From: a virus
Length of the DNA: 64,000 nt
Virus record (IMG/VR): IMGVR_UViG_3300037225_001188
Span: 62,001-126,000 of that record
Direction: 5' to 3' (one strand)
The stretch's first letter is position 1. Every line of letters starts with the position of its first letter. Below are positions 33,746-57,228 of the stretch, piece after piece. A model generated the notes under the pieces. It worked only from the letters and a program-made list of their open reading frames with translations. It made no database searches and was not told the origin of the DNA. The position numbers were made by a program, and so were the translations under genes.

Positions 33746-34209
33746 GCGACTACGCGACGGTAAATCAGTTCGGCGTCAAAGGCAACAGCGTCCTCCCGGA
33801 GCACCCGGAGTGGGGCGTCTATCGTGTAGTCAGCGAGGTCGACTCCGACCTGCCGACCAAGCTGCAGGCCGGCGTCGTGGCCTCGGACTGGGATTCGGTT
33901 TGGCTCGACCTGGCGTTCGAGAACGTCGTGGTCGGGACGACCAGCAGCGTCAACACGGCGTCGATCCAAATCTTCTTCTGGAGCCCGGCCGCCACGGTCG
34001 CGGTGGACCCGGTCACGGGCAAGTACGTGTACACCGGCGGGTGGGTTGCCCAGGACGTCCTCGACACGATCGACGTCATCGCCGGAGACGACGGGCACAA
34101 GGCGGTCCTCCTGTGCATCGACCGGCGCCCGTTCTACCTGAAGGTCACGGCGCTCGGTGACCTCGCGGTGGTCCACCTCCTCGTCTCGGGGAACAAGCGG
34201 GTCGGCTGA
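33742..34209 (+). CDS. hypothetical beta-rich protein, 155 aa
   Basis: MSDYATVNQFGVKGNSVLPE, then alternating strands (WDSVWLDLAFENVVVGTTSS, NTASIQIFFWSPAATVAVD, KYVYTGGWVAQDVLDTIDVI, YLKVTALGDLAVVHLLVSG). AGGAAGG precedes the ATG. The fold looks like a jelly-roll or Ig-like virion accessory protein; its place among packaging genes fits a decoration or connector role, unproven. Confidence 0.55.
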   Translation: MSDYATVNQFGVKGNSVLPEHPEWGVYRVVSEVDSDLPTKLQAGVVASDWDSVWLDLAFENVVVGTTSSVNTASIQIFFWSPAATVAVDPVTGKYVYTGGWVAQDVLDTIDVIAGDDGHKAVLLCIDRRPFYLKVTALGDLAVVHLLVSGNKRVG

Positions 34210-34219
34210 GAGCGCGTTG

Positions 34220-35773
34220 ATGTCAGTGCGACAGCCGTTCGCCTCGCCCAAGCGCTCCGGGTACGAGCCTGACCAGGAGCGCATCAAGGCGGTCGGTCGA
34301 GACCGGTCGAAGGAGACCCTCGCCGGGTCGATCGTAGAGGTCGACCAGATGTATCGCGACGCGCTCCGCCGGTCGATTGTCGAAGACGAGCGGGTCGACC
34401 TGCTCATGACGCACGTCCTCGGGTACGATTGCGCTCCGCACCACCGCCAGATGCTGGCCTTCCAGCGAGAGCACCCGCAGAGCTTGATCCTCGCCTTCCG
34501 TGGCAGCGGGAAAACGACGGCATGTTCCGTCTCCAAGGCCATCTGGTACCTGTGCGCCAATCCGAACTTGCGCATCGTCATCGCCTCCAAGACCGGCCCG
34601 ATGGCGAAGGCGATCCTGCGTGAGATCAAGCAGCAGCTTTCTGCCAATCAGGACCTCATCGAGATGTTCGGCGAGTTCGCGCCGCGCTCGTTGAACGATC
34701 CGAACATCATCTGGAACGAGAGCGAGATCAACATCAGGCAGCGGACCGAGTTCACCAAAGAGGCCAACGTAACCGCCATCGGCGGCGAGACCGCGGTCGT
34801 CGGCAAGCACTACGACGTCGCGATCATCGACGACCTCGTCGACGAGGAGAACAGCCGCACCGTCACCCAACGCGACAAGCTGAAGACGTTCTACTACAAG
34901 ACGCTCGACCCGTGCCTCGAGCCGCCTGACAAGAAGGTGAAGCACCGCGGCGACAGGCGAATTGTCGGGACTCGCTACCACCCTGACGATATGTATGGTT
35001 ATCTGCTGAAAGGTGAGCTGAAGGAGCACACTCAGATCATCCCGGCACTCACGAAGGTCGGCGATGACGAGCGCGGCCAACCGGTCTACGAGACCCCGTG
35101 GCCTGAGAAGTTCTCGATCGAGTTCTTCCTCAAGGCCAGGCAGGTGAAGGGGCCTTCGATCTTCGACTCGCAATACCAGTGCAACATCGACACCATGCGC
35201 GGCGACGTCTTCCCGCGCGAGTGGTTCGAGCACGACCAGGTCTACTACGACAAGATCCCGGAGACCGCGATGACGTGGTCCGGGGTCGACCTCGCCATCG
35301 GGCTCCGCGAGCGCAACGACAAGTTCGCCCACGTCACCATCGCCCGCGACCTCAAGACCGGCATCGTCTACCTGGTCGACTACCTCGTCGGAAGGTATAG
35401 CTTCACCCAGCAGACGTCGATCATCGGCGAGCGCTTCAACTCCCAGCACCCGATCCGGGTCGGCATCGAGGCCGTGGCGTACCAGGCCTCGCAGTTCCAG
35501 AAGGTCGTCGAGCAGTACCCGGAGATGAAGGGGCGGGCAGTCCCGGTGTTCACCAAGGTCGACAAGCTGACGCGAGCCTGGAGGCTGACCGGCCTCTTCG
35601 AGTCGAAGCTCGTCAGGATCAAGCAGCACCACACCGCGTTCGTCGACCACATGGTCGCGTTCCGCGGCGATGACGGCGGCGATGACGACCTGTTCGACGC
35701 CTTCGAGATCGCCGTCACCATGTCGCAGAGTGGGGCCCGCAAGCGGCGCGAGGACGAGCCCGGCGTGTACTAG
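34220..35773 (+). CDS. terL: terminase large subunit
   Basis: 517 residues. ATPase domain: LILAFRGSGKTTACSVSKAI (Walker A, residues ~90-105), VIASKTGPMAKAILREI, and HYDVAIIDDLVDEENSR with Walker B IIDD near residue 205. Nuclease domain: MTWSGVDLAIGLRERNDKF with the first Asp of the RNase H-like site near 355, GIEAVAYQASQFQ, and a C-terminal DDDLFDAFEIAV. It packages DNA into proheads and cuts at headful or specific sites. Full length for the family; the portal follows. Confidence 0.93.
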   Translation: MSVRQPFASPKRSGYEPDQERIKAVGRDRSKETLAGSIVEVDQMYRDALRRSIVEDERVDLLMTHVLGYDCAPHHRQMLAFQREHPQSLILAFRGSGKTTACSVSKAIWYLCANPNLRIVIASKTGPMAKAILREIKQQLSANQDLIEMFGEFAPRSLNDPNIIWNESEINIRQRTEFTKEANVTAIGGETAVVGKHYDVAIIDDLVDEENSRTVTQRDKLKTFYYKTLDPCLEPPDKKVKHRGDRRIVGTRYHPDDMYGYLLKGELKEHTQIIPALTKVGDDERGQPVYETPWPEKFSIEFFLKARQVKGPSIFDSQYQCNIDTMRGDVFPREWFEHDQVYYDKIPETAMTWSGVDLAIGLRERNDKFAHVTIARDLKTGIVYLVDYLVGRYSFTQQTSIIGERFNSQHPIRVGIEAVAYQASQFQKVVEQYPEMKGRAVPVFTKVDKLTRAWRLTGLFESKLVRIKQHHTAFVDHMVAFRGDDGGDDDLFDAFEIAVTMSQSGARKRREDEPGVY

Positions 35774-35783
35774 GAGAGATCTG

Positions 35784-37568
35784 ATGGAGACCACCGAAGG
35801 ACAGGGGACGTTCAAGATCCGGCAGCGGGACGACGAGCCGAGCCTCTTCCAGTTCAGGACGGCCGAAGACTCGTCGTTCTCGCCGTACGAGAGGATGGGG
35901 GTTCGCCGAACCTCCGACGAGATGATCGAGGTCGAGAAGGCCGTCGACGGGACCGTTGACAAGGCCAGCCAGCAGATCATCGAAGATCCGTTCCGCCTCG
36001 ACTACGACGCGTACGGGGTCATCCGACCGCCGATCAACCTCCTCGAGCTGTCGTCGCTCTGGGAGAAGAACACCATCCTCGGGCCGTGCATCGAGGCGAT
36101 GAACATCAACTGCGAGGCCTTCTGGCACATCTTCGAGCCGCGCTTCAAGCGCGATGACGTCGACGACGCCACCAAGCACCGGATGGACGTCGAGTACAGC
36201 ATCCTCGAGAACTTCTTCAACAACGCCTCGGTCAACGAGCCGCACCTGTCATTCACCGATCTGCGTCTCCGCAAGCGCACCGATCAAGAGGGGGTCGGCG
36301 GGGCGTTCTGGGAGGTCGTCCGCAGCAACGACGGCGAGCTGATGGGCTTCAACCACATCCCGGCGCACACGTGCCGCTGGGGGAAGCTGACGACTGAAGA
36401 GATCGAGACCAAGCAGAAGATCGTCGTCTTCTCGCAGGACGGGAAGGCCGACTTCCGCTACCGCACCGTCAGGCGCAACTTCAGGCTCGTGCTCCAGCGG
36501 CGCGGCATCCGGCTGGCCTGGTTCAAGACGCTCGGAGACCCGCGCGTCATCAACCGCCACAACGGCTACGTCGCCGATGAGGACCTTCCGGTAGCCGACC
36601 GAGCCAACGAGGTGGTGTTCTTCCCGAACGTCTACTCGGGGCGCACCCCGTACACCTTCCCGCGCTTCACCGGAGCGCTGTTCTCGATCTACGGGTCGCG
36701 CAGCGCCGACGAGATTAACTACACGACGTTCGAGAACAACATGATCCCCTCGATGGCGATCATGGTGAGCAACGGCATGCTCACGAAGGGCTCGATCGGG
36801 CGGTACAAGGAGTTCACCGAGGCCAACATCGTCGGGCGGAAGAACTACTCCGTCTTCCTGCTGCTGGAGTCGGAGCCGATCACCGAGGGGGTTGCGAATC
36901 CAGGGACGATGAAGCTCGACATCAAGCCGTTGACCGGGGTGCAGCACAAGGACGAGCTGTTCCAGGAGTACGATAAGAACAACCGCGACAAGGTCCGCGG
37001 CAGCTTCCGCCTCCCGCCCATCTACCTCGGCAACGTCGTCGGGTACAACAAGAGCACGGCCTCGACCTCGCGCAAGCTGGCCGAGGAGCAGGTCTTCGGG
37101 CCTGAGCGCGAGCGGTTCGACCAGTTCATCAACGCCGTCATCCTCCCGGAGCTGAACATCCTGTACTGGAAGTTCCACTCGAACTCTCCGGACACGACGG
37201 ACAACGAGGACCTCATCAAGCTGCTCGTCGGCGGGGAGAAGTCGGGCGGATCTAACCCGCGCATCGCCCGCGAGGTCATGAACCGCGTCTTCAGCAAGAA
37301 CCTCGGGCCGATCAAGGGGATCGACCCCGAGGTCCCGTACTCGATGCAGCTCGCCGAGGTCATGCAGGCCGGCGGCGTCCCGGAGAACAGGCTCAGCGTC
37401 CCTGGAGAGAACTCGGTCAACCGCGCCGGTAAGCTTCCGAGCCTCGACTCCGCGACCGCGATCGACAAGGCCGAGAAGCTCAGGCGCTCGCGCGTCAACA
37501 TGGAGCGCATGTACCAGGAGTTGTTCGACGACTGGCACTCCAGCGCCTTCCAGGACGAGCAAGACTGA
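35784..37568 (+). CDS. portal protein
   Basis: 594 residues behind AGGAGAGATCTG. An N-terminal acidic region, then INLLELSSLWEKNTILGPCI and MNINCEAFWHIFEP, a domain with FNHIPAHTCRWGK and a stem region. The clip/wing motif FFPNVYSGRTPYTFPRFTGA is followed by IPSMAIMVSNGMLTKGSIGR and SFRLPPIYLGNVVGYNKSTA, typical of PBSX/SPP1-like portals. The protein forms the dodecameric DNA gate at one vertex. Position between terminase and MuF gene agrees. Confidence 0.85.
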   Translation: METTEGQGTFKIRQRDDEPSLFQFRTAEDSSFSPYERMGVRRTSDEMIEVEKAVDGTVDKASQQIIEDPFRLDYDAYGVIRPPINLLELSSLWEKNTILGPCIEAMNINCEAFWHIFEPRFKRDDVDDATKHRMDVEYSILENFFNNASVNEPHLSFTDLRLRKRTDQEGVGGAFWEVVRSNDGELMGFNHIPAHTCRWGKLTTEEIETKQKIVVFSQDGKADFRYRTVRRNFRLVLQRRGIRLAWFKTLGDPRVINRHNGYVADEDLPVADRANEVVFFPNVYSGRTPYTFPRFTGALFSIYGSRSADEINYTTFENNMIPSMAIMVSNGMLTKGSIGRYKEFTEANIVGRKNYSVFLLLESEPITEGVANPGTMKLDIKPLTGVQHKDELFQEYDKNNRDKVRGSFRLPPIYLGNVVGYNKSTASTSRKLAEEQVFGPERERFDQFINAVILPELNILYWKFHSNSPDTTDNEDLIKLLVGGEKSGGSNPRIAREVMNRVFSKNLGPIKGIDPEVPYSMQLAEVMQAGGVPENRLSVPGENSVNRAGKLPSLDSATAIDKAEKLRRSRVNMERMYQELFDDWHSSAFQDEQD

Positions 37569-38572
37569 TGGACGAGCGTCTCGAGCACCTTGAGGGCGTC
37601 TGCGAGTGCGCCCTCCACGCCCACCTGATGCTCGAGATGAGCGAGCATCGAGTGGCGAAGGCCGCCGGCGACGAAGAGGACGACGTTCGCGACGTCATCC
37701 TCCCGCCGCTCGTCATCACTCTCGCGCGCCTGCTAGCCGCCCGCTTTCGCCGCCGCGCCGATTCGGTCGTCGACGAGGCGGTTGCCGGGTTCGAGCAAGC
37801 CAGGACTGCTGAGCAGATCGCCGCGGTAGTGGAGAAGCTTGGCGTCGCGCTCGGAGCGGTCTTGGCCTCGGCCAGCTCGGGCGACGTCTCCAAGGCGGTC
37901 CAGGCGATGTTCCAGAAGGCGAAGGCGGCCGCGGCCGGTGAGCTTCACGTGCAATCGACCTTCTCTTCGCTTGACGGACGCACGCAGGAATGGCTGCAGC
38001 GGGCCTACCCGTGGTGGATCGGAGGCTACCACTCCAGCGTCCTCGCCAAGCAGATCGACGCCATCGCCAGGTACGCCATCATCGAGCGCGGGCTGTCCGG
38101 CAGCGAGCTAGCTGCGCTTATGCGCGACCAGCTCTCGCGGCTCTACGGGCTCGGGCGCGGCAGGAAGAGTCCGGTGGTGGTCCCGCGATCGTTCCGCGGT
38201 CAGCCGGACCTGTATTGGGTCGGGCTGGCGAACAACGCTGCGACTCAAGCCATGGCCTTCGCCAGGTTGTCGGCGATGCGCGAGGCCGGGGTCTTGCGCT
38301 ACGCCATCGCGTCCGTCGGGGACGAGCGCGTGTGCGCCCTCTGCCGCTTCATGGACGGCAAGGAGTTCTCGATCGCTGATGGAGAGAGCTTCCGCGATGC
38401 GGTCATCGCGACCAAGACGCCGGATGAGTACAAGGCGGTCGCCGGGTGGATGACGGTGAAGGTCGCCATGAAGCTGTTCGACGAGGGCGGAGATGCGGCG
38501 TTGGCGAAGACAAGCCTGCTGCTTCCGTCGTACCATTTCCTCTGTCGTTGTACCGTGTCGCCTGTGACATGA
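37568..38572 (+). CDS. MuF/SPP1 gp7-like minor head protein
   Basis: 334 residues. A helical N-terminus, then a domain in which DERVCALCRFMDGKEFSI is followed by LLLPSYHFLCRCTVSPV at the C-terminus: the CxxC-x-x-G...H-x-x-CRC zinc-like motif of MuF domains. Such proteins bind the portal and enter the head, where some carry fused toxins or enzymes; no fused enzyme is present here. It starts on the last base of the portal stop codon. Confidence 0.8.
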   Translation: MDERLEHLEGVCECALHAHLMLEMSEHRVAKAAGDEEDDVRDVILPPLVITLARLLAARFRRRADSVVDEAVAGFEQARTAEQIAAVVEKLGVALGAVLASASSGDVSKAVQAMFQKAKAAAAGELHVQSTFSSLDGRTQEWLQRAYPWWIGGYHSSVLAKQIDAIARYAIIERGLSGSELAALMRDQLSRLYGLGRGRKSPVVVPRSFRGQPDLYWVGLANNAATQAMAFARLSAMREAGVLRYAIASVGDERVCALCRFMDGKEFSIADGESFRDAVIATKTPDEYKAVAGWMTVKVAMKLFDEGGDAALAKTSLLLPSYHFLCRCTVSPVT

Positions 38573-38582
38573 GAGGTTCGTT

Positions 38583-41500
38583 ATGGACGAAAGACTGGAC
38601 CGGAAGAACCGGAGAGCAGTCCGCGAGGCCGAAGCTGTGAAAAAGCAGTCGGCCGCGTTAGCCCCAGCCGCGCCGATCGTGCCCTTGGATGCCGTCGACA
38701 AAGCCGTGGCAGCCAAGGACGTCACGCCCGACATGTTCGACGGTATGGACGACGAGGACCTCAAGTCGGTCGCCAATGAGGTCGCCGAGCTGTGGGCCAG
38801 CATGTACGGGTCCGCCCTCGACGCGCCGAAGCAGGCCATCGCCGAGACGAAGGTCGACCTGCCGGCAGACCAGATCCAAGCCCTCCGCGACCGGCGCAAG
38901 CGCACGGTGGTCAACGACGAGGCCTTGCCGGCGGCAAAGGTCTACTTGGTCACCAACGACGGCAAGGCCTACGGCCTGCTGTCGATGGGGGCTCCGCGCG
39001 AGCTGTCGGTGGACGAGTTCATGGCTGAGGACCTCTCGGCTGACGAGCAGGCCCAGCGCTGGCCCGACGCCAACCGCCTCTTCTGCCACGACGTCCTGGC
39101 GTACTTCGACTTCGGCGAGCCCGTCGATCCGAGCCAGGTCGAGTACAAGGCCGTCTCGAAGATGACGCGCGAGGACCTCGTCAAGATGGCGGAGAAGCTG
39201 CACGCGGAGGCCGAGAAGAGAAGCCTCGAGTTGGGCTTCCCGCAGGACCTCCAGCGCCAGCTTCAGGTCGCGAAGAGCGACAGCCACCCGCAGTCGCCAG
39301 ACCTCTACATGCCGCCGAACGATCCGAACCCTGAAGCTGAACCGCCGTTCGGGCAGCAGCCGAAGGAGTACGCCAGCAACAAGGTCAAGGTCCCAGGGGT
39401 GAGCGATCCGATCGATGGACCGAAGGGGCACGAGTGGGGCTCGAACAACCCGGCCCAGCAGGAGTGGGACGCCGGCGACTACTCGCACTACGGGGAGGGT
39501 GACGCAGGCGGCTTCTACGAGTTCTCGACCAGCGGCGGGGCTCGGTACTCGGCGGGGGCGCCGAACGCCGGCGAGAGCCCGATCGCGTCCGGGTCGCTCG
39601 CGGCCGCCGGGAAGAAGAACCCCATCATCGCTCGATGGCGAACGACGCTCACGAAGGCAGCCGTCGTCCCGACGGTTCGGATGCTTCTCGAGGCCCGCGT
39701 GCACGAGGCATTCACCGTCACGGCCGACTACCTGTACTCCGTCGGGCTCCTCGAGCGCGACGAGCGCGTCTCGCTGTCCGGGCTCGTCGGAGACTTGCTC
39801 GACGCCTTCGGCGGCGCGATGCCGTACGACCTCGGGGTGCGGCCACTCAACAGCGTTCCTCAGGTCGAGACGAAGGTCGTCACCAAGGGGTCGGCGAAGA
39901 CCCCGCCCGACATCATCATGTCGGTCCAGTCCCCGGTCACGGTCGGCCCCGCCTCGGCCTCGCCGGAGTGGGGGCCGACACCGGTGGCGAAGGACGGCTC
40001 GCTTGCTGCGGAGCTGAACGCCGCCCTGGCGTCAGAGTACGGCGCCTGGCTCACCTACGTGAGCTGCGGCCACGCGGCGAGCGGCCTGGAGAGCGACGCG
40101 GTCAGAAACCTCTTCTTCGACCACGCCGACGAGGAGTACGAGCACGCGAAGCTCCTCGGGCGCAAGATCGTCGGCCTCGGCGTCATGCCGACGATCGACG
40201 TCGACCTGGCCGTCCGCGGGGCGACCCTGACGACGGTCCCGCGCAGCCTGGCGGCCATGGTCGCGCTGAACCTCGAGATGGAGCACGCGGCCACCGCCCG
40301 CTACGAGCAGCTGCTCTCCAGGAGCGACCTCGACTCGGCGCTCACCAACGACCTCCAGACGATCGCCTCGAAGGAGGCCGAGCACGCCGAGGAGCTTGGT
40401 CGCCTCTGCGTCGAGAAGGACGCCCAGTTCATCGTTGGCGAGCCGCCGCAGACCGAGCAAGACGTCCGCGGCGGGCACTTCGAGGGGGCGCCCGACGACT
40501 TCGCAGTCACCCAAGCCTGTGGCACGAAGTACCCGTTCGTGATGCAGCACGTCTTCAGCGGCCTCCGCGGGCAGCAGGAGCGGGCCGACCTGAAGAAGGC
40601 GCTCGACCAGGTCAAGGCGATGGCTGCCGGAGGCGACGCCGCGGCAGACGCGGCCCTGGCAGACATGTGGAAGAAGCACGACCTGAAAATAATCACCACC
40701 AACCTTGAAAAATTGTCGGCATCGCTGCAGGCAGCTGACGACGGTAGAGGTGACGCCTCGTCGGTGATGGCGAGCTTCCTGGACAGTTCTCCACCGCAAG
40801 CCATAGACTTGCATAAGGTTTTGGCGAGCGTCGTCACCCCGGGCAGCGTGCACACCGATCTCCTAATTCAATCGCCCGAAGGTGACTGGTTGATAGGTTG
40901 GATGATGGACACCCCAAAAAGTGTGCTGCAGACGTTGGACGGAAAGCTGTTGCGCGTCATGCGCAACAAGGTCCTCGAGCACGCTCCTGGTGACGTCGTC
41001 GCCTGCCAGAAGACCGGACGCCGCGAGACCGGCAACCTGCACCTGGTCAGCCCGTCCAGCTCGGTCTTCAAGGACGAGTCGACCAACGGACAGCCAGTGG
41101 GCGAGGTCAGGTTCCTCGACCGCGGCGAGGCCATCTTCGGGGTTCAGAAGCCCGACTACCACGAGATGTTCCTCTCGTTCGAGAAGAACCAGAAGCTCAG
41201 CGGCCGCTGGGAGTTCAAGAGCGCGGAGCCGCCGGACGCGTGGCTCGCCGAGCGCCCGGAAGTCCAGGCCCCGTACGCCGTCACCCACAAGGACCCCGAA
41301 GCCGGGGCGGCGTGGAACCAGGCGGCGGTGGACCTCCTGCGCGAGATGAAGTACCCGGACATGTCGGACCCGGCCGAGTCGGTGTCGAAGTTCGTCCAGG
41401 TCTTCAAGAGCGCTTCCACCGAAGAGCGGACCGTGTTCGGCGTCGTACTCGAGCCCGAGACCATGGACGCCCACGGCGACGTGATCTCGATCAGCGAGAT

Positions 41501-41798
41501 CCAGAACGCCGCCTACACGTACATGGAGTTCTACCAGCAGAAGGGGTTCCAGCACGGTAAGAACCCTCGCTACCCGGCCTTCCCGGACGGCCTGCGGCTG
41601 CTGGAGAGCTACGTGCTCGACCCGCAGCTCTTCCCCAACGGCATCGACATCGGTTCGCGTCACGTCAAGCCTGGCACCTGGCTGATGCGGATGCGTGTGG
41701 ACCACGACGGCCTGTGGAGCGACATCAAGACCGGTCGCATCACCGGGTTCAGCATCGGCGGTTTCGCTCGGTCGATCTCCGAGCAAAGGGCAGCCTGA
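38583..41798 (+). CDS. head protein fusing a ferritin-like domain to an XkdF-type prohead protease
   Basis: 1071 residues. N-terminal region (~90-230) with KVYLVTNDGKAYGLLSMGAP. A Pro/Asn-rich linker follows (~230-370). A four-helix ferritin-like domain lies at ~470-620: ALASEYGAWLTYVSCGHA, FFDHADEEYEHAKLLGRKI, ALNLEMEHAATARYEQLL, ASKEAEHAEELGRL, with Glu, ExxH, Glu and ExxH in the di-iron positions. A beta-rich domain is at ~750-900. The C-terminal ~130 residues are XkdF-like: FGVVLEPETMDAHGDVIS, KPGTWLMRMRVDHDG, TGFSIGGFARSI. Gene order fits prohead protease; the ferritin insertion is unusual. GC dips around 40680-40960. Confidence 0.75.
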   Translation: MDERLDRKNRRAVREAEAVKKQSAALAPAAPIVPLDAVDKAVAAKDVTPDMFDGMDDEDLKSVANEVAELWASMYGSALDAPKQAIAETKVDLPADQIQALRDRRKRTVVNDEALPAAKVYLVTNDGKAYGLLSMGAPRELSVDEFMAEDLSADEQAQRWPDANRLFCHDVLAYFDFGEPVDPSQVEYKAVSKMTREDLVKMAEKLHAEAEKRSLELGFPQDLQRQLQVAKSDSHPQSPDLYMPPNDPNPEAEPPFGQQPKEYASNKVKVPGVSDPIDGPKGHEWGSNNPAQQEWDAGDYSHYGEGDAGGFYEFSTSGGARYSAGAPNAGESPIASGSLAAAGKKNPIIARWRTTLTKAAVVPTVRMLLEARVHEAFTVTADYLYSVGLLERDERVSLSGLVGDLLDAFGGAMPYDLGVRPLNSVPQVETKVVTKGSAKTPPDIIMSVQSPVTVGPASASPEWGPTPVAKDGSLAAELNAALASEYGAWLTYVSCGHAASGLESDAVRNLFFDHADEEYEHAKLLGRKIVGLGVMPTIDVDLAVRGATLTTVPRSLAAMVALNLEMEHAATARYEQLLSRSDLDSALTNDLQTIASKEAEHAEELGRLCVEKDAQFIVGEPPQTEQDVRGGHFEGAPDDFAVTQACGTKYPFVMQHVFSGLRGQQERADLKKALDQVKAMAAGGDAAADAALADMWKKHDLKIITTNLEKLSASLQAADDGRGDASSVMASFLDSSPPQAIDLHKVLASVVTPGSVHTDLLIQSPEGDWLIGWMMDTPKSVLQTLDGKLLRVMRNKVLEHAPGDVVACQKTGRRETGNLHLVSPSSSVFKDESTNGQPVGEVRFLDRGEAIFGVQKPDYHEMFLSFEKNQKLSGRWEFKSAEPPDAWLAERPEVQAPYAVTHKDPEAGAAWNQAAVDLLREMKYPDMSDPAESVSKFVQVFKSASTEERTVFGVVLEPETMDAHGDVISISEIQNAAYTYMEFYQQKGFQHGKNPRYPAFPDGLRLLESYVLDPQLFPNGIDIGSRHVKPGTWLMRMRVDHDGLWSDIKTGRITGFSIGGFARSISEQRAA

Positions 41799-41800
41799 CG

Positions 41801-43138
41801 ATGGCACGACGCCTGGTCAATCTCCTGGTGAAGTGCGTCGACCTGGTCGACGAGCCAGCCAACCAAGAACCGTTCCTCGTCGTCAAGGACAAGGGCGGAA
41901 GCTCGAAGGTCGAGGGGGCAGTATGGTCGACCGCTGAGGTCAACCTGCTCCCCGACTCGAGCTTCCTCCTCGTCGATGACGGCGGCACCAAGGATGGTGA
42001 AGGCAAGACGACTCCACGTTCGCTGCGGCACCTACCGTACCGCGACAAGGACGGCAAGGTCGACCTCGCTCACCTGCGCAACGCGCTCGCCCGCATCCCC
42101 CAGATGAAGACGGACGAGGCCACCAAGAAGCGTCTGACGGAGCACGCCCGCCAACTCCTCGAGCAGGAGGGCGGCGGTTCCAAGGAGAAAGCAGCGATGG
42201 AGACCACGACCCAGGGAGAGGCCACCGCCAAGGCGGGGGCGGCCCCCGCAGAGACCCCGTTCACCATGGCCATGGCGAAGGCCGATTCGATCCTGGGTGC
42301 CGACGCGGCACTCGCCAAGTCCCTTGGCGACGCCGTGCAGAGCGTCATCCAGAGCGTCGTCGTCAGCAAGACCATGACCCCCGACAAGGTCGCCGAGGCG
42401 ATGAAGGCCTCGACCGACCTCGTCGAGCAGGCCATGTCCGAGCCCGACGCGGAGCTGCGCAAGAGCGCCCTGTCGAAGGCGAAGGACCTCATGGAGCGCC
42501 TCCACAAGAGCGTGACCGCGATGCAGCCCGGCCCCCAGGTCGGGATGCCGGCCGGCGCGGGCGGCGAGCCGTGGAATGGCTCCGGGAAGCCCGAGGGCGA
42601 CCTGAAGCCGCAGTTCACCGCGAAGGCGTTCACCGCCGGCGCCGGCGCGAACGGCAATCACACGATCCCGACCGCGGCCGGCGGCACCCCGCCGGAGGGC
42701 GCTCCGACCTCGGAGCCGAAGCCGCAGGTCACGTCCTTCCCGGGCGGCGCGGACATCACCAACGCCGTACGGAAGGCGGCCGAAGATCTGACCAAGGCGC
42801 TCGGCAGCCTCGCGAAGGCCTTCGAGCCCGCGGCCCCGGCGTGCGCGCCCGAGGCGAAGGCGGCCGAGGAGCCGAAGCCGCCCGTCGCGCCCGAGGCGAA
42901 GGCGGCCGAGGAGCCGAAGCCGGCGGCCGAGGTCGAGAAGAAGGGCACCGTCGGACCGCAGGCGTCCGGCGAGGGCCCGGTGGATGAGGTCGCCAAGGCC
43001 ATCGGCGAGGTCAGCCGGCGCCTGCAGCTCCTCGAGAAGGGGAACATCGGCTCCGGGACCAAGGCCGCGCAGGGCGGGGCCGAGGGCGACGCGGCCGGCA
43101 AGGCGGTGGAGAAGTCGTTCTGGGCGAACATCGTCTAG
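41801..43138 (+). CDS. probable scaffolding protein
   Basis: 445 residues. N-terminus LVNLLVKCVDLVDEPANQEP with the V-DLVD-PAN motif of XkdF-like protease-substrate proteins, then SLRHLPYRDKDGKVDLAHLR (a small conserved helical element), a helical middle (LAKSLGDAVQSVIQSVVVSK), a Gly/Pro-rich stretch and repeated EAKAAEEPKPP units before the acidic C-terminus ending KSFWANIV. Long helices, low complexity and the position between protease and capsid genes fit a scaffold. It follows directly after the previous stop. Confidence 0.65.
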   Translation: MARRLVNLLVKCVDLVDEPANQEPFLVVKDKGGSSKVEGAVWSTAEVNLLPDSSFLLVDDGGTKDGEGKTTPRSLRHLPYRDKDGKVDLAHLRNALARIPQMKTDEATKKRLTEHARQLLEQEGGGSKEKAAMETTTQGEATAKAGAAPAETPFTMAMAKADSILGADAALAKSLGDAVQSVIQSVVVSKTMTPDKVAEAMKASTDLVEQAMSEPDAELRKSALSKAKDLMERLHKSVTAMQPGPQVGMPAGAGGEPWNGSGKPEGDLKPQFTAKAFTAGAGANGNHTIPTAAGGTPPEGAPTSEPKPQVTSFPGGADITNAVRKAAEDLTKALGSLAKAFEPAAPACAPEAKAAEEPKPPVAPEAKAAEEPKPAAEVEKKGTVGPQASGEGPVDEVAKAIGEVSRRLQLLEKGNIGSGTKAAQGGAEGDAAGKAVEKSFWANIV

Positions 43139-43218: not shown

Positions 43219-44424
43219 ATGAGCCAGATCTCCAACGCCACGCTGGTCGAGAAGGCCGTCATCGCGACGGACGCACTCGCGACCGCCGGCAAGCTCAACC
43301 CCCAGCAGAGCGACAAGTTCATCGACTACGTCTTCGACCAGACGATGCTGCGCCAGAACGCGCGCACCATCAAGTTCACGCCCGAGACGCTGAACATCGA
43401 CAAGATCGGCGTCGGCAAGCGCGTCGCCGTGGCGGCCACCGAGGCAGAGGACCCCAGCGTCCGCCGCGGTATCACGGCCACCAAGGTCACCCTGACGCCC
43501 GTCGAAGTCATGGTGCCCTTCGAGATCGGCGACACGTTCCGCGAGATCAACATCGAGGGCCAGAACGTGGACGAGCACATCGTCCGCATGATGGCGACGG
43601 TGTTCGCGAACGACCTCGAAGACCTCTTCATCAACGGCAACAAGCTCGGCCCGGCCATCCTGGAGGCCGACTACAAGGACGGCGGCAGCGACTCCCAGTA
43701 CGTGAAGGACGCGTACCTGGGCCTCGTCGACGGCTGGCTCAAGCTGGCCGAGGACGCGCACCGCGTCGACGCGCTCAGCGCGAACGTCGCCCCGGGCCTC
43801 TTCTCGAAGATGCTCAACAACATGCCGCCCAAGTTCAAGCGCGACCGCAAGAAGCTGCGCTTCCTGGCGAGCATCGAGACCGAGCAGCTGTACCGCGAGC
43901 GCCTCTCGCAGCGCGCGACGCCCGGCTCGGACCGCAGCATCGAGAACGCCGACGCCATGACGCCGTTCGGCGTGCCGCTCGTCGGCGTGCCGCTGCTCTC
44001 GCAGACCCCGAAGGTCGTCGAGCACGTCGCGGTCAACAGCGACGGCACCACGGCGACCGCGCTGAAGTACAGCAACATCGACAACGTCGTCGTCTCCGCG
44101 TCGACCCTGAGCAGCACCGCGGCCACGCCGTACATCGCGAACACCGACTACACGGTGGACCTCGTGAACGGCAGCATCACGCGCCTCACGGGGCAAGCGA
44201 TCGGCTCGGCGGCCACCGTCAAGGTGACCTACACCACCACGAGCCGCATTCTGCTCACCCACATGGAGAACTTCGTCGTGGGCATCGGGCGCGACGTCCG
44301 CATCGAGAAGCAGCGCAACATCTTCCGCCGCGTCAACATGTACGCGATCACGGCCAAGGTGGCGGTGCAGGTCGAGGAGACCGACGCCCTCGTCGACGGC
44401 TACAACATCGGCCTGACGATCTAA
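43219..44424 (+). CDS. major capsid protein (HK97-type) with an inserted beta domain
   Basis: 401 residues behind a very strong AGGAGGAAGTTC. MSQISNATLVEKAVIATDAL, then RQNARTIKFTPETLNIDKIG and VTLTPVEVMVPFEIGDTFRE (E-loop/P-domain region), MMATVFANDLEDLFINGNK, and KLRFLASIETEQLYRERLSQ in the A-domain. Residues ~275-345 (NVVVSASTLSSTAATPYIAN, DYTVDLVNGSITRLTGQAIG) look like an Ig-like surface insertion before the C-terminal NIFRRVNMYAITAKVAVQVE. Forms the icosahedral shell. Confidence 0.85.
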   Translation: MSQISNATLVEKAVIATDALATAGKLNPQQSDKFIDYVFDQTMLRQNARTIKFTPETLNIDKIGVGKRVAVAATEAEDPSVRRGITATKVTLTPVEVMVPFEIGDTFREINIEGQNVDEHIVRMMATVFANDLEDLFINGNKLGPAILEADYKDGGSDSQYVKDAYLGLVDGWLKLAEDAHRVDALSANVAPGLFSKMLNNMPPKFKRDRKKLRFLASIETEQLYRERLSQRATPGSDRSIENADAMTPFGVPLVGVPLLSQTPKVVEHVAVNSDGTTATALKYSNIDNVVVSASTLSSTAATPYIANTDYTVDLVNGSITRLTGQAIGSAATVKVTYTTTSRILLTHMENFVVGIGRDVRIEKQRNIFRRVNMYAITAKVAVQVEETDALVDGYNIGLTI

Positions 44425-54630: not shown

Positions 54631-57228
54631 ATGAGCCAGAGAGTCTACGGCCCGACCCAGGGAGCCGGCACCCAGATCACCGAGACGGACGCCGAGAAGA
54701 CCATCGTTCCGTCGACCTTCGGGGTTACCGTCCACGTCGGCGCCTACCAGCGCGGCATGGTCGGGGCGTTGAACTTCGCGCCGAAGAAGAAGCAGTTCAG
54801 CGCCCAGATGGGCGGGCGCCTGGCGAACGGCCTCATCGCCCCCGACGCGGCGTTGGATTTCTTCGACATGTCAGAGGGCGCCGGGGAGCTGTGGTGCGTC
54901 CGCGTCACCGATGGCAACGAGGTCGCTTCTTCGGTGTACCTCTACAACCGCCGCGTCCCGCGCAGCGCGGTCGTGAAGTTCTCGGCGCACGACGGCGGCC
55001 AGTGGGCCGGGCGCGCCGGCTTCCTCGTCGGCGAGATCGAGCAGACGACCGTGGGGACGACCACCTCCACGGACCTCACGGAGACCACGCTGTCGACCGG
55101 CAAGACCATGCTCAAGGACTACTGGGCCGGCGCCGTCCTGAAGCTGCACGCCGTCGCGACCAAGTCTTACCTCGTCCTCAGCAACACGGTCGACGGCGTC
55201 CTCACCGTCGTGTCGGACACGACGATGCTCACCGACTACGGCAGCAGCGTCGACCTCGAGTACACCCTCGAGCTGGCCGACGTGGCGGAGCCGCTCGAGG
55301 TCTACGTCCACGACGGGACCCAGGCCCCGACCGAGGAGTGGGGCGCGGACATCTACTGGAACGGCGCGCTCGAGCAGCAGTACGACAACCTCTCCAGCGA
55401 CCCGACCAGCCCGCACTACTTCGTGCGCGCGTTCAACGACGACACCGGGAACTTCTCGGTCAAGGTCCAGGATCTGTGGACCGGCGGCTACGCGGCGGAC
55501 GTCCGCCCGGCCAACCACTACGAGCAGGTCGCGAGCCTGTCGAGCACGGTCGCGAAGCTCGAGATCGTCCAGGCCAAGGTCAACTCGGTCGGCGGCGGGA
55601 CGGCGACGATCGGCGGCTGGAGCTACGGCCAGAAGGTTAAGGCGCAGTCGCTCACCATCACGTTCACGACCCCGACGGCCTACGGCGTCGTGAGCGACCA
55701 GTACGGCAGCGTGGGCACCGGCGTCGTGGGGGCGGCCTTCGTCCCGACCTTCGGCGCGGACTACATCCCGTCGTTCGTGGTCACGGCCGGCACGTTCGCG
55801 ATGGCCGCGCTCGACACGATCTCCGTCCTCGTGAACCCGCTGACCCCAGACGCCCTGGTCGGCGGCCTCATCTACCCGAACAAGGCGACCGACCGCCGCA
55901 CGTTCTTCGTCATCGTCTCCAACACCGTCGACACCGTGACGGTGAAGTCGGACAGCGACATGACGGTCGTCGCCGACGCCGGGACGCCCGGATCGGTCAC
56001 CGGGACCGCGACCGGCCCGACCTTCAGTACGGTCGGGAACACCGCCCTCGCGCTGCGGATCGACGGCGGGCCGATCCAGGTCGTGCCCATCCCGTCGGGC
56101 GCCACGGTCGCCGCGGCTAACATCGTCAACTCCATCAACAGCTCGCTCGGCATGACGATCGCCAGCTACACGACAGACAAGCACATCAAGCTGACGAGCA
56201 CCATCGGCGGCCGCTTCAGCGCCGTCTGGATCGGCGCCGGCGGCGCGAACACGCCGCTCGGCTTCACCGCCAGCACGAACCACCCGGGCGCGGTCGGGGA
56301 CAGCGCGATGCTGCAGTGGCGCCAGCCGCTGGCCGGCGGCTACGACGGCCTCGCCAGCCTGACCTCGTCCGACTACGAGGCGATGTACGACCTCGACACG
56401 TCGCCCATCAACCGCCTCTTCGGACGCCTCAAGGGGCTCGTGAAGCTCGGCACCCCGGGCGTGACGAGCACGGCGCTGCAGAAGCAGGCGGCCGCGTACG
56501 CCGAGGCGCGGAACTACCAGTACCGCTACGAGTGCCCGGCCGACATCGTCACCGAGGACGCGGCCGAGGAGTACGTCAACGACACGCTCGGGCGCAGCGA
56601 CTTCGCGGTCATGGCGTTCCCGTCGTACGCCTACATCGCGAACCCGCTGAAGAACAGCGTCGGCATGAAGCTGGTCAGCACGACCGGCGCCATCCACGGC
56701 CGCGAGGCCAAGATGGCGAGCGCCTGGAGCGGCTACCACAAGGCCGCGGCCGGCGTGGACGTCACGCTGCCGGCGTTCCTGTCGCTGCCGACCGGCGACG
56801 CCGTCCTCGACGAAGAGAGCCTGAACCCGCAGGGCATCCAGGTGCTCAAGTTCGTCGGCGGGAACCTCATCATCTGGGGCGACCGCACCGTGTCGGCCGA
56901 CCCGAGCTGGATGTGGAAGCACCAGCGTGAGCAGATGTCGCACTACGGGAACGTCCTGAGGGAGAACTTCGACTGGATCATCTTCGCCATCAACGACACC
57001 GTGTCGTGGACGATGGCGTGGACCGAGCTTGACAAGTTCTTCAAGCAGGAGGTCACGAACCGCGCGCTCGACGGCTACAACGTCAAGATCGACGCGGAGA
57101 ACAACACGACCGACACGAAGGCCAAGGGTAACGCGAACTGCGACATCCGGCTGAAGTTCGTCGACACGATCGAGAGATTCCGCATCGGCATGTCGAAGGT
57201 CGGCGTGTTCGAGGACGTCGGGACGTAA
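54631..57228 (+). CDS. contractile tail sheath protein
   Basis: 865 residues behind GAGGAATCC. N-terminal VTVHVGAYQRGMVGALNFAP and variable surface domains with long Thr/Val strands (~150-550). The conserved C-terminal half has GGYDGLASLTSSDYEAMYDL, YRYECPADIVTEDAAEEYVN, ASAWSGYHKAAAGVDVTLPA, LKFVGGNLIIWGDRTVSADP and NVLRENFDWIIFAINDTVSW, the sheath signature. It contracts to drive the tube through the host envelope, so the virion is a myovirus. Larger than typical sheaths (400-700), with the extra length in the variable part. Confidence 0.9.
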   Translation: MSQRVYGPTQGAGTQITETDAEKTIVPSTFGVTVHVGAYQRGMVGALNFAPKKKQFSAQMGGRLANGLIAPDAALDFFDMSEGAGELWCVRVTDGNEVASSVYLYNRRVPRSAVVKFSAHDGGQWAGRAGFLVGEIEQTTVGTTTSTDLTETTLSTGKTMLKDYWAGAVLKLHAVATKSYLVLSNTVDGVLTVVSDTTMLTDYGSSVDLEYTLELADVAEPLEVYVHDGTQAPTEEWGADIYWNGALEQQYDNLSSDPTSPHYFVRAFNDDTGNFSVKVQDLWTGGYAADVRPANHYEQVASLSSTVAKLEIVQAKVNSVGGGTATIGGWSYGQKVKAQSLTITFTTPTAYGVVSDQYGSVGTGVVGAAFVPTFGADYIPSFVVTAGTFAMAALDTISVLVNPLTPDALVGGLIYPNKATDRRTFFVIVSNTVDTVTVKSDSDMTVVADAGTPGSVTGTATGPTFSTVGNTALALRIDGGPIQVVPIPSGATVAAANIVNSINSSLGMTIASYTTDKHIKLTSTIGGRFSAVWIGAGGANTPLGFTASTNHPGAVGDSAMLQWRQPLAGGYDGLASLTSSDYEAMYDLDTSPINRLFGRLKGLVKLGTPGVTSTALQKQAAAYAEARNYQYRYECPADIVTEDAAEEYVNDTLGRSDFAVMAFPSYAYIANPLKNSVGMKLVSTTGAIHGREAKMASAWSGYHKAAAGVDVTLPAFLSLPTGDAVLDEESLNPQGIQVLKFVGGNLIIWGDRTVSADPSWMWKHQREQMSHYGNVLRENFDWIIFAINDTVSWTMAWTELDKFFKQEVTNRALDGYNVKIDAENNTTDTKAKGNANCDIRLKFVDTIERFRIGMSKVGVFEDVGT

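Follow-up and report, generated by a model that had tools for sequence, protein, structure and literature searches.

The phage sequence described here encodes a head-maturation protein with a ferritin-like domain inserted upstream of its protease. In the window analysed (64,000 nucleotides, positions 62001-126000 of a 130,793-base IMG/VR virus record), positions 38583-41798 (+) form one unbroken frame of 1071 aa, and Pfam matches both a ferritin-like domain and a C-terminal XkdF prohead protease domain within it. The first-pass annotation of this DNA had proposed this pairing in a head-morphogenesis protein, and that part stands. It had missed a further domain lying between the two, which has the fold of LigD-type 3'-phosphoesterases. 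The features that enter the argument are the following.

34157..35773 (+), terminase large subunit (phrog_38, E=1.5e-74)
35670..37568 (+), portal protein (phrog_12, E=6.3e-25), the true start probably being later than 35670
37568..38572 (+), MuF-like minor head protein (PF04233, E=4e-6, slightly below the cut-off)
38583..41798 (+), polyvalent-type head protein comprising N-terminal region, ferritin-like module, LigD-phosphoesterase-fold domain and XkdF prohead protease (ORF, Pfam, fold search)
38583..39980 (+), N-terminal region, residues 1-466, matching no known family (59% identity to L054 over residues 38-466)
39984..40430 (+), inserted segment, residues about 468-616 (missing, with the frame kept, in L054, the closest relative)
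40008..40406 (+), ferritin-like domain, residues 476-608 (Pfam PF00210, E=1.4e-12; five-structure profile, E=1.6e-17)
40035..40037 (+), ligand E485, helix A
40134..40145 (+), ligands E518xxH521, helix B
40281..40283 (+), ligand E567, helix C
40374..40385 (+), ligands E598xxH601, helix D
40527..41264 (+), LigD 3'-phosphoesterase-fold domain, residues about 649-894, with motif H changed to V657 and motif R to L761 (AlphaFold, Foldseek, VIA, motif table)
41397..41777 (+), XkdF / Peptidase_S78_2 domain, residues 939-1065, in which H991 and S1057 are near-invariant (Pfam, E=3.7e-24; conservation; VIA)
41801..43138 (+), scaffold-position ORF between protease and capsid protein, without a family match
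43219..44424 (+), major capsid protein (phrog_1623, E=2.4e-71; 65% identical in L002)
54631..57228 (+), tail sheath (phrog_23, E=3.7e-21)

The genes run in the order terminase large subunit, portal, MuF-like protein, 1071-aa protein, scaffold-position ORF and capsid protein, followed by head-tail and tail genes including the sheath. With these neighbours, the 1071-aa gene lies in a head-morphogenesis operon. The predicted sheath gene marks the virus as a contractile-tailed phage. The sole tRNA detected in the window is a tRNA-Pro (cgg) at 2023-2118 (-).

Over residues 476-608 PF00210 scores 48.1 bits against a curated Pfam cut-off of 24.5, and the Rubrerythrin family (PF02915) matches the same stretch weakly (E=1.8e-5). 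An independent profile, made from five solved ferritin-like proteins only and without the window sequence, finds residues 483-610 at E=1.6e-17, while 20,000 composition-preserving shuffles of the ferritin domain yielded no match even at E<=10. By this profile the segment is not an ordinary scaffold coiled coil, the outcome that had been envisaged as the undoing of the idea when the domain was first noticed. The order of Glu, ExxH, Glu and ExxH that had drawn attention to it is indeed present, as E485, E518xxH521, E567 and E598xxH601. The bare order is not rare by itself, arising in 152 of the 20,000 shuffles, and we therefore take the profile match as the evidence for a ferritin.

The closest solved relatives are the Dps-like protein 8w1d, the bacterioferritin-related 2vzb, the bacterioferritin 9qq4, and 2qqy. 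All six di-iron ligands align with equivalent residues in these four; the fifth structure, 9cz8, has D in place of E518. The six are also kept in stand-alone cellular homologues of about 30% identity, encoded by genomes of the phylum to which a Myxococcales MAG belongs, so the ligand conservation on which the early reading depended is seen against both solved structures and cellular proteins. A single-sequence AlphaFold model of the ferritin segment alone reached a pLDDT of 43 and was not taken to a fold search. Its long helices (model residues 23-49, 67-82, 104-128 and 131-166) agree, at the level of secondary structure only, with a predicted four-helix fold. With its full set of di-iron ligands, the domain is predicted to bind iron and to act as a ferroxidase.

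Several more specific assignments were tried and rejected. The Dps-like (DPSL) subfamily does not fit, as the cysteine pair of 2vzb and 9cz8 (one before helix C, the other in the ERCA of helix C) is absent, with no Cys at those columns. Nor is this a rubrerythrin with a rubredoxin-like Fe(Cys)4 domain, since the translation downstream of residue 608 has no CxxC pairs. The EncB-family encapsulin cargo (TIGR04535, NCBIfam) scored far under threshold, at 22.5 bits against a cut-off of 90 and 18.7 against 125.

Comparison with L054 suggests how the domain came to lie where it does. L054 is 59% identical to the window protein before the insert (residues 38-466) and about 50% identical after it. Where the window protein reads WGPTP, then the ferritin, then QFIVGEPP, L054 reads WGHTPHPVEVTNKEAEFVVGEPP: 11 residues separate its WGHTP from its FVVGEPP, and the whole ferritin stands there in the window protein. 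Judged by this alignment, the ferritin is a clean in-frame module insertion, flanked by Pro/Ser/Gly-rich linkers. The segment has a GC of 0.69 and a GC3 of 0.96, and its codon usage lies within the spread seen elsewhere in the gene; it thus looks neither newly arrived nor misassembled. L054 has an inorganic pyrophosphatase and a DUF5661 near its N-terminus, both of which the window protein lacks. L002 has a capsid protein 65% identical to that of the window, but no ferritin, and a different small stretch occupies the ferritin slot.

The LigD relationship is invisible to sequence profiles and emerged by fold only. With nine relatives as input, AlphaFold modelled residues 630-1071 at a mean pLDDT of 75.6 (about 90 in the first half). 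This model gave 3p43 as its sole significant Foldseek match (E=2.6e-4), and the five LigD-type phosphoesterases returned by VIA had Z scores of 13.6 (3p43), 13.1, 12.0 (3n9b), 11.8 and 10.9. The QxH...HxDxR motif, whose residues we take to be catalytic in the LigD family, is intact in all eight aligned relatives and broken only in the window protein. There V657 (codon GTC, 40551-40553) and L761 (codon CTA, 40863-40865) replace the motif H and R, and the domain is therefore probably inactive in this phage. The same protein thus combines a broken phosphoesterase motif with a complete ferritin site.

For the protease, Peptidase_S78_2 scores 85.6 bits against a Pfam cut-off of 24, and H991 and S1057 are presumably the catalytic residues. 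The C-terminal part also resembles the T4 gp21 prohead protease (5jbl) with a VIA Z of 7.4, which is weak alone and which we accept because it is consistent with the Pfam result.

What distinguishes XkdF proteins from one another is the part that precedes the protease. The 92 dereplicated XkdF proteins compared, all from related loci, are 97 to 2447 aa long (median 441), and 18 have at least 1000 aa. In 89 of the 92 the protease occupies the very C-terminus, and the upstream part ranges from nothing to more than 2300 aa. Because the upstream part is variable and the C-terminal protease constant, we read the protease as the means of prohead entry and the rest as passenger. Ferritin occurs in one of the 92, the window protein. 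Pfam scans of 55 XkdF-type proteins (31 + 24, the window protein among them) found DNA ligase in 14, D12 adenine methylase in 10, 2H/LigT phosphoesterase in four, C5 methylase in two, InPase in two and ferritin in one; two of the 55 have portal and XkdF domains in a single ORF. The 2447-aa protein (L053:1-7341, +), whose ORF is cut off at its 5' end by the edge of the retrieved stretch, has five C5 cytosine methylase stretches, a TRM5-like methylase match, a DNA ligase and the protease. From these sequences, the cargo region exchanges its modules rapidly, and the ferritin appears as one of them.

Fusions of an ATP-dependent DNA ligase to XkdF, often with methylases, are seen at L020:271-6948, L098:3566-8893, L138:4161-8777, L027:3223-6789, L055:3175-7356 and L061:5065-8967. 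The last also has, by eye, a LigD-phosphoesterase-like HHHHRGRSLHSDFR motif. These ligase fusions look like a LigD-type end-repair set within a head protein. The first 450 residues of L052:4510-7359 are a passenger without a Pfam match, which to the eye looks like a transglycosylase-type barrel and then a nucleotidyltransferase-like stretch. On another contig, binned as Myxococcales and with a capsid protein 58% identical, a MuF protein (L139:6992-9955, +) has a long extension with kinase-like motifs, again by eye; an XkdF domain was not found in the 21 kb examined.

We searched for a second ferritin fusion with the full protein, the ferritin alone, the N-terminal region, the capsid protein (two alignments), the phosphoesterase plus XkdF region and the portal as queries, and also with an alignment of the ferritin and its cellular homologues. 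About 125 XkdF-bearing loci were retrieved, and their ORFs contained no ferritin. In tblastn searches of GenBank phages, neither the ferritin nor the middle region had a match. The hope of finding the fusion in other phages was therefore disappointed among these loci, and the single known fusion is a lower bound. In the open-licence literature we found no description of a head-maturation protease with a fused ferritin, so the novelty claimed for the fusion survives at that scope. The fusion is no isolated oddity, since the ferritin is a module of a known polyvalent theme.

We infer a modular head protein with an encapsidated ferritin passenger, processed at its linkers, that oxidises Fe2+ and limits Fenton damage to the genome, and we regard this explanation as evenly poised between right and wrong. 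The C-terminal XkdF protease domain would carry the protein into the prohead, with all parts upstream, including the ferritin-like di-iron domain, travelling as passenger. At maturation the protease would probably cleave the Pro/Ser/Gly-rich linkers, leaving the ferritin free inside the head. The di-iron site could then oxidise Fe2+ using peroxide or oxygen, in the head and possibly in the cell after ejection. Detoxification of Fe2+ and peroxide around the genome would result in less Fenton damage. That many XkdF passengers act on DNA is in keeping with DNA protection as the purpose. As HK97 proheads take about 60 protease copies and those of D3 about 90 (PMC12749128), tens of ferritin domains would, by analogy, enter each head.

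Some observations count against this explanation. Phage D3 Prohead 2 gives a cleaved capsid protein band only, with no visible protease band (PMC12749128), which suggests that fused passengers might be lost. The fusion comes from a single genome, with no second phage in which selection on the ligands could be followed. Ferritins also normally work as cages or dimers. The idea, put forward when the domain was first noticed, that redox state might time protease activation found no support and was set aside: the XkdF family works without ferritin, which is absent from 91 of the 92 dereplicated related proteases.

The main rival is that the packaged ferritin is an injected effector that acts in the new host cell, where it would lower free iron or peroxide early in infection or shield the incoming DNA from oxidative host responses. 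Polyvalent proteins have been proposed to enter with the DNA (PMC5512222), and stand-alone phage Dps and Mn-catalase genes have been proposed to be active during infection (PMC8008677). The methylase, InPase and ligase passengers, moreover, make most sense in a host cell. The copies delivered would, however, be few relative to cellular iron, and we judge this reading unlikely while treating it as a serious contender; sequence cannot separate it from a ferritin that guards the genome. A purely structural use would have the four-helix bundle serve the scaffold/protease core as a spacer or for oligomerisation, with an inherited and idle di-iron site. The adjoining phosphoesterase, which keeps its fold and has lost two motif residues, indicates that domains can persist without activity. 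But a very divergent domain, sharing only about 30% identity with its nearest relatives, has retained all six ligands, which makes a purely structural role less likely, and 91 of the 92 related proteases do without a ferritin. We give this use little credence.

It is more improbable still that the work of the ferritin is confined to the producing cell, where, before heads are assembled or while they are, it would protect either the protease or replicating DNA, to be destroyed at maturation. The disappearance of the protease from D3 Prohead 2 (PMC12749128) would fit such a fate, but a separate gene would serve equally well, and fusion to the protease suggests a reason for presence in the prohead. 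That an assembly or annotation artefact joined two genes we consider barely credible. In its favour is the single known copy, but the 1071 codons lie in a single open frame, L054 matches in that frame on either side of the insert, and the codon usage of the insert is typical of the gene.

If the ferritin reaches the virion, this phage would have a dedicated iron- and oxidant-handling enzyme in its head. Phage capsids would then be linked to ferritin-loaded encapsulins, which are thought to have descended from HK97-type phages. XkdF proteases with DNA ligase, methylases, pyrophosphatase and LigD-type end-healing domains point to a general cargo system, in which the protease C-terminus could serve as a natural tag that brings enzymes into phage heads. 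The fullest version of this picture has a working ferritin loaded into a DNA-filled HK97-type head via the maturation protease, where it would guard the packaged DNA; such a head would be the viral equivalent of a ferritin-loaded encapsulin, and XkdF a general import route. We offer it tentatively, as clearly more apt to fail than to hold.

The protein most closely recalls the polyvalent proteins. In phages these are encoded near virion genes (PMC5512222, Iyer et al. 2017), and their assemblin-like peptidases are always C-terminal and thought to process the chain (PMC5512222). The 1071-aa protein likewise has unrelated domains in one chain, a place among virion genes and a C-terminal peptidase; by architecture it is a phage polyvalent protein, presumably packaged in the virion. 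The InPase, DNA methylases and 2H domains of its XkdF relatives are also listed among polyvalent modules (PMC5512222). The polyvalent architecture is thus already known, and it is the ferritin as a polyvalent module that is new relative to the main text of that paper, which names InPase but mentions neither ferritin nor DNA ligase (PMC5512222). With the XkdF family and T4 gp21 the protein shares its C-terminal protease by sequence and by fold, although the short members have no large passenger region.

The ferritin itself has the same domain and the same six ligands as 8w1d, 2vzb, 9qq4, 2qqy and the cellular homologues, at about 30% identity, but those proteins have no phage head domains. In other phages, Dps and Mn-catalase are stand-alone genes, in Gratiaviridae and others, for which a role in oxidative stress or iron has been proposed (PMC8008677), and mass spectrometry of a Vi01-like phage detected a predicted ferritin, gp217 (PMC10892097). 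These belong to the ferritin superfamily, as the window domain does, but are separate genes unfused to a head protein.

Encapsulin ferritins are short two-helix proteins, whereas the profile gives the window ferritin all four. In encapsulins, ferritin-like cargo functions within HK97-fold shells, and the archaeal Flp-fusion encapsulins of Pyrococcus and Sulfolobus carry the ferritin as a fusion to the shell protein (PMC8346489). The window phage is not itself a case of the latter, as its capsid protein is a separate ORF (43219-44424). It resembles the Flp-fusion encapsulins and Myxococcus EncA/EncB/EncC in its ferritin-like domain, its HK97-type shell and its covalent fusion. Encapsulins have the ferritin on the shell protein and no genome inside, while in this phage it is fused to the maturation protease.
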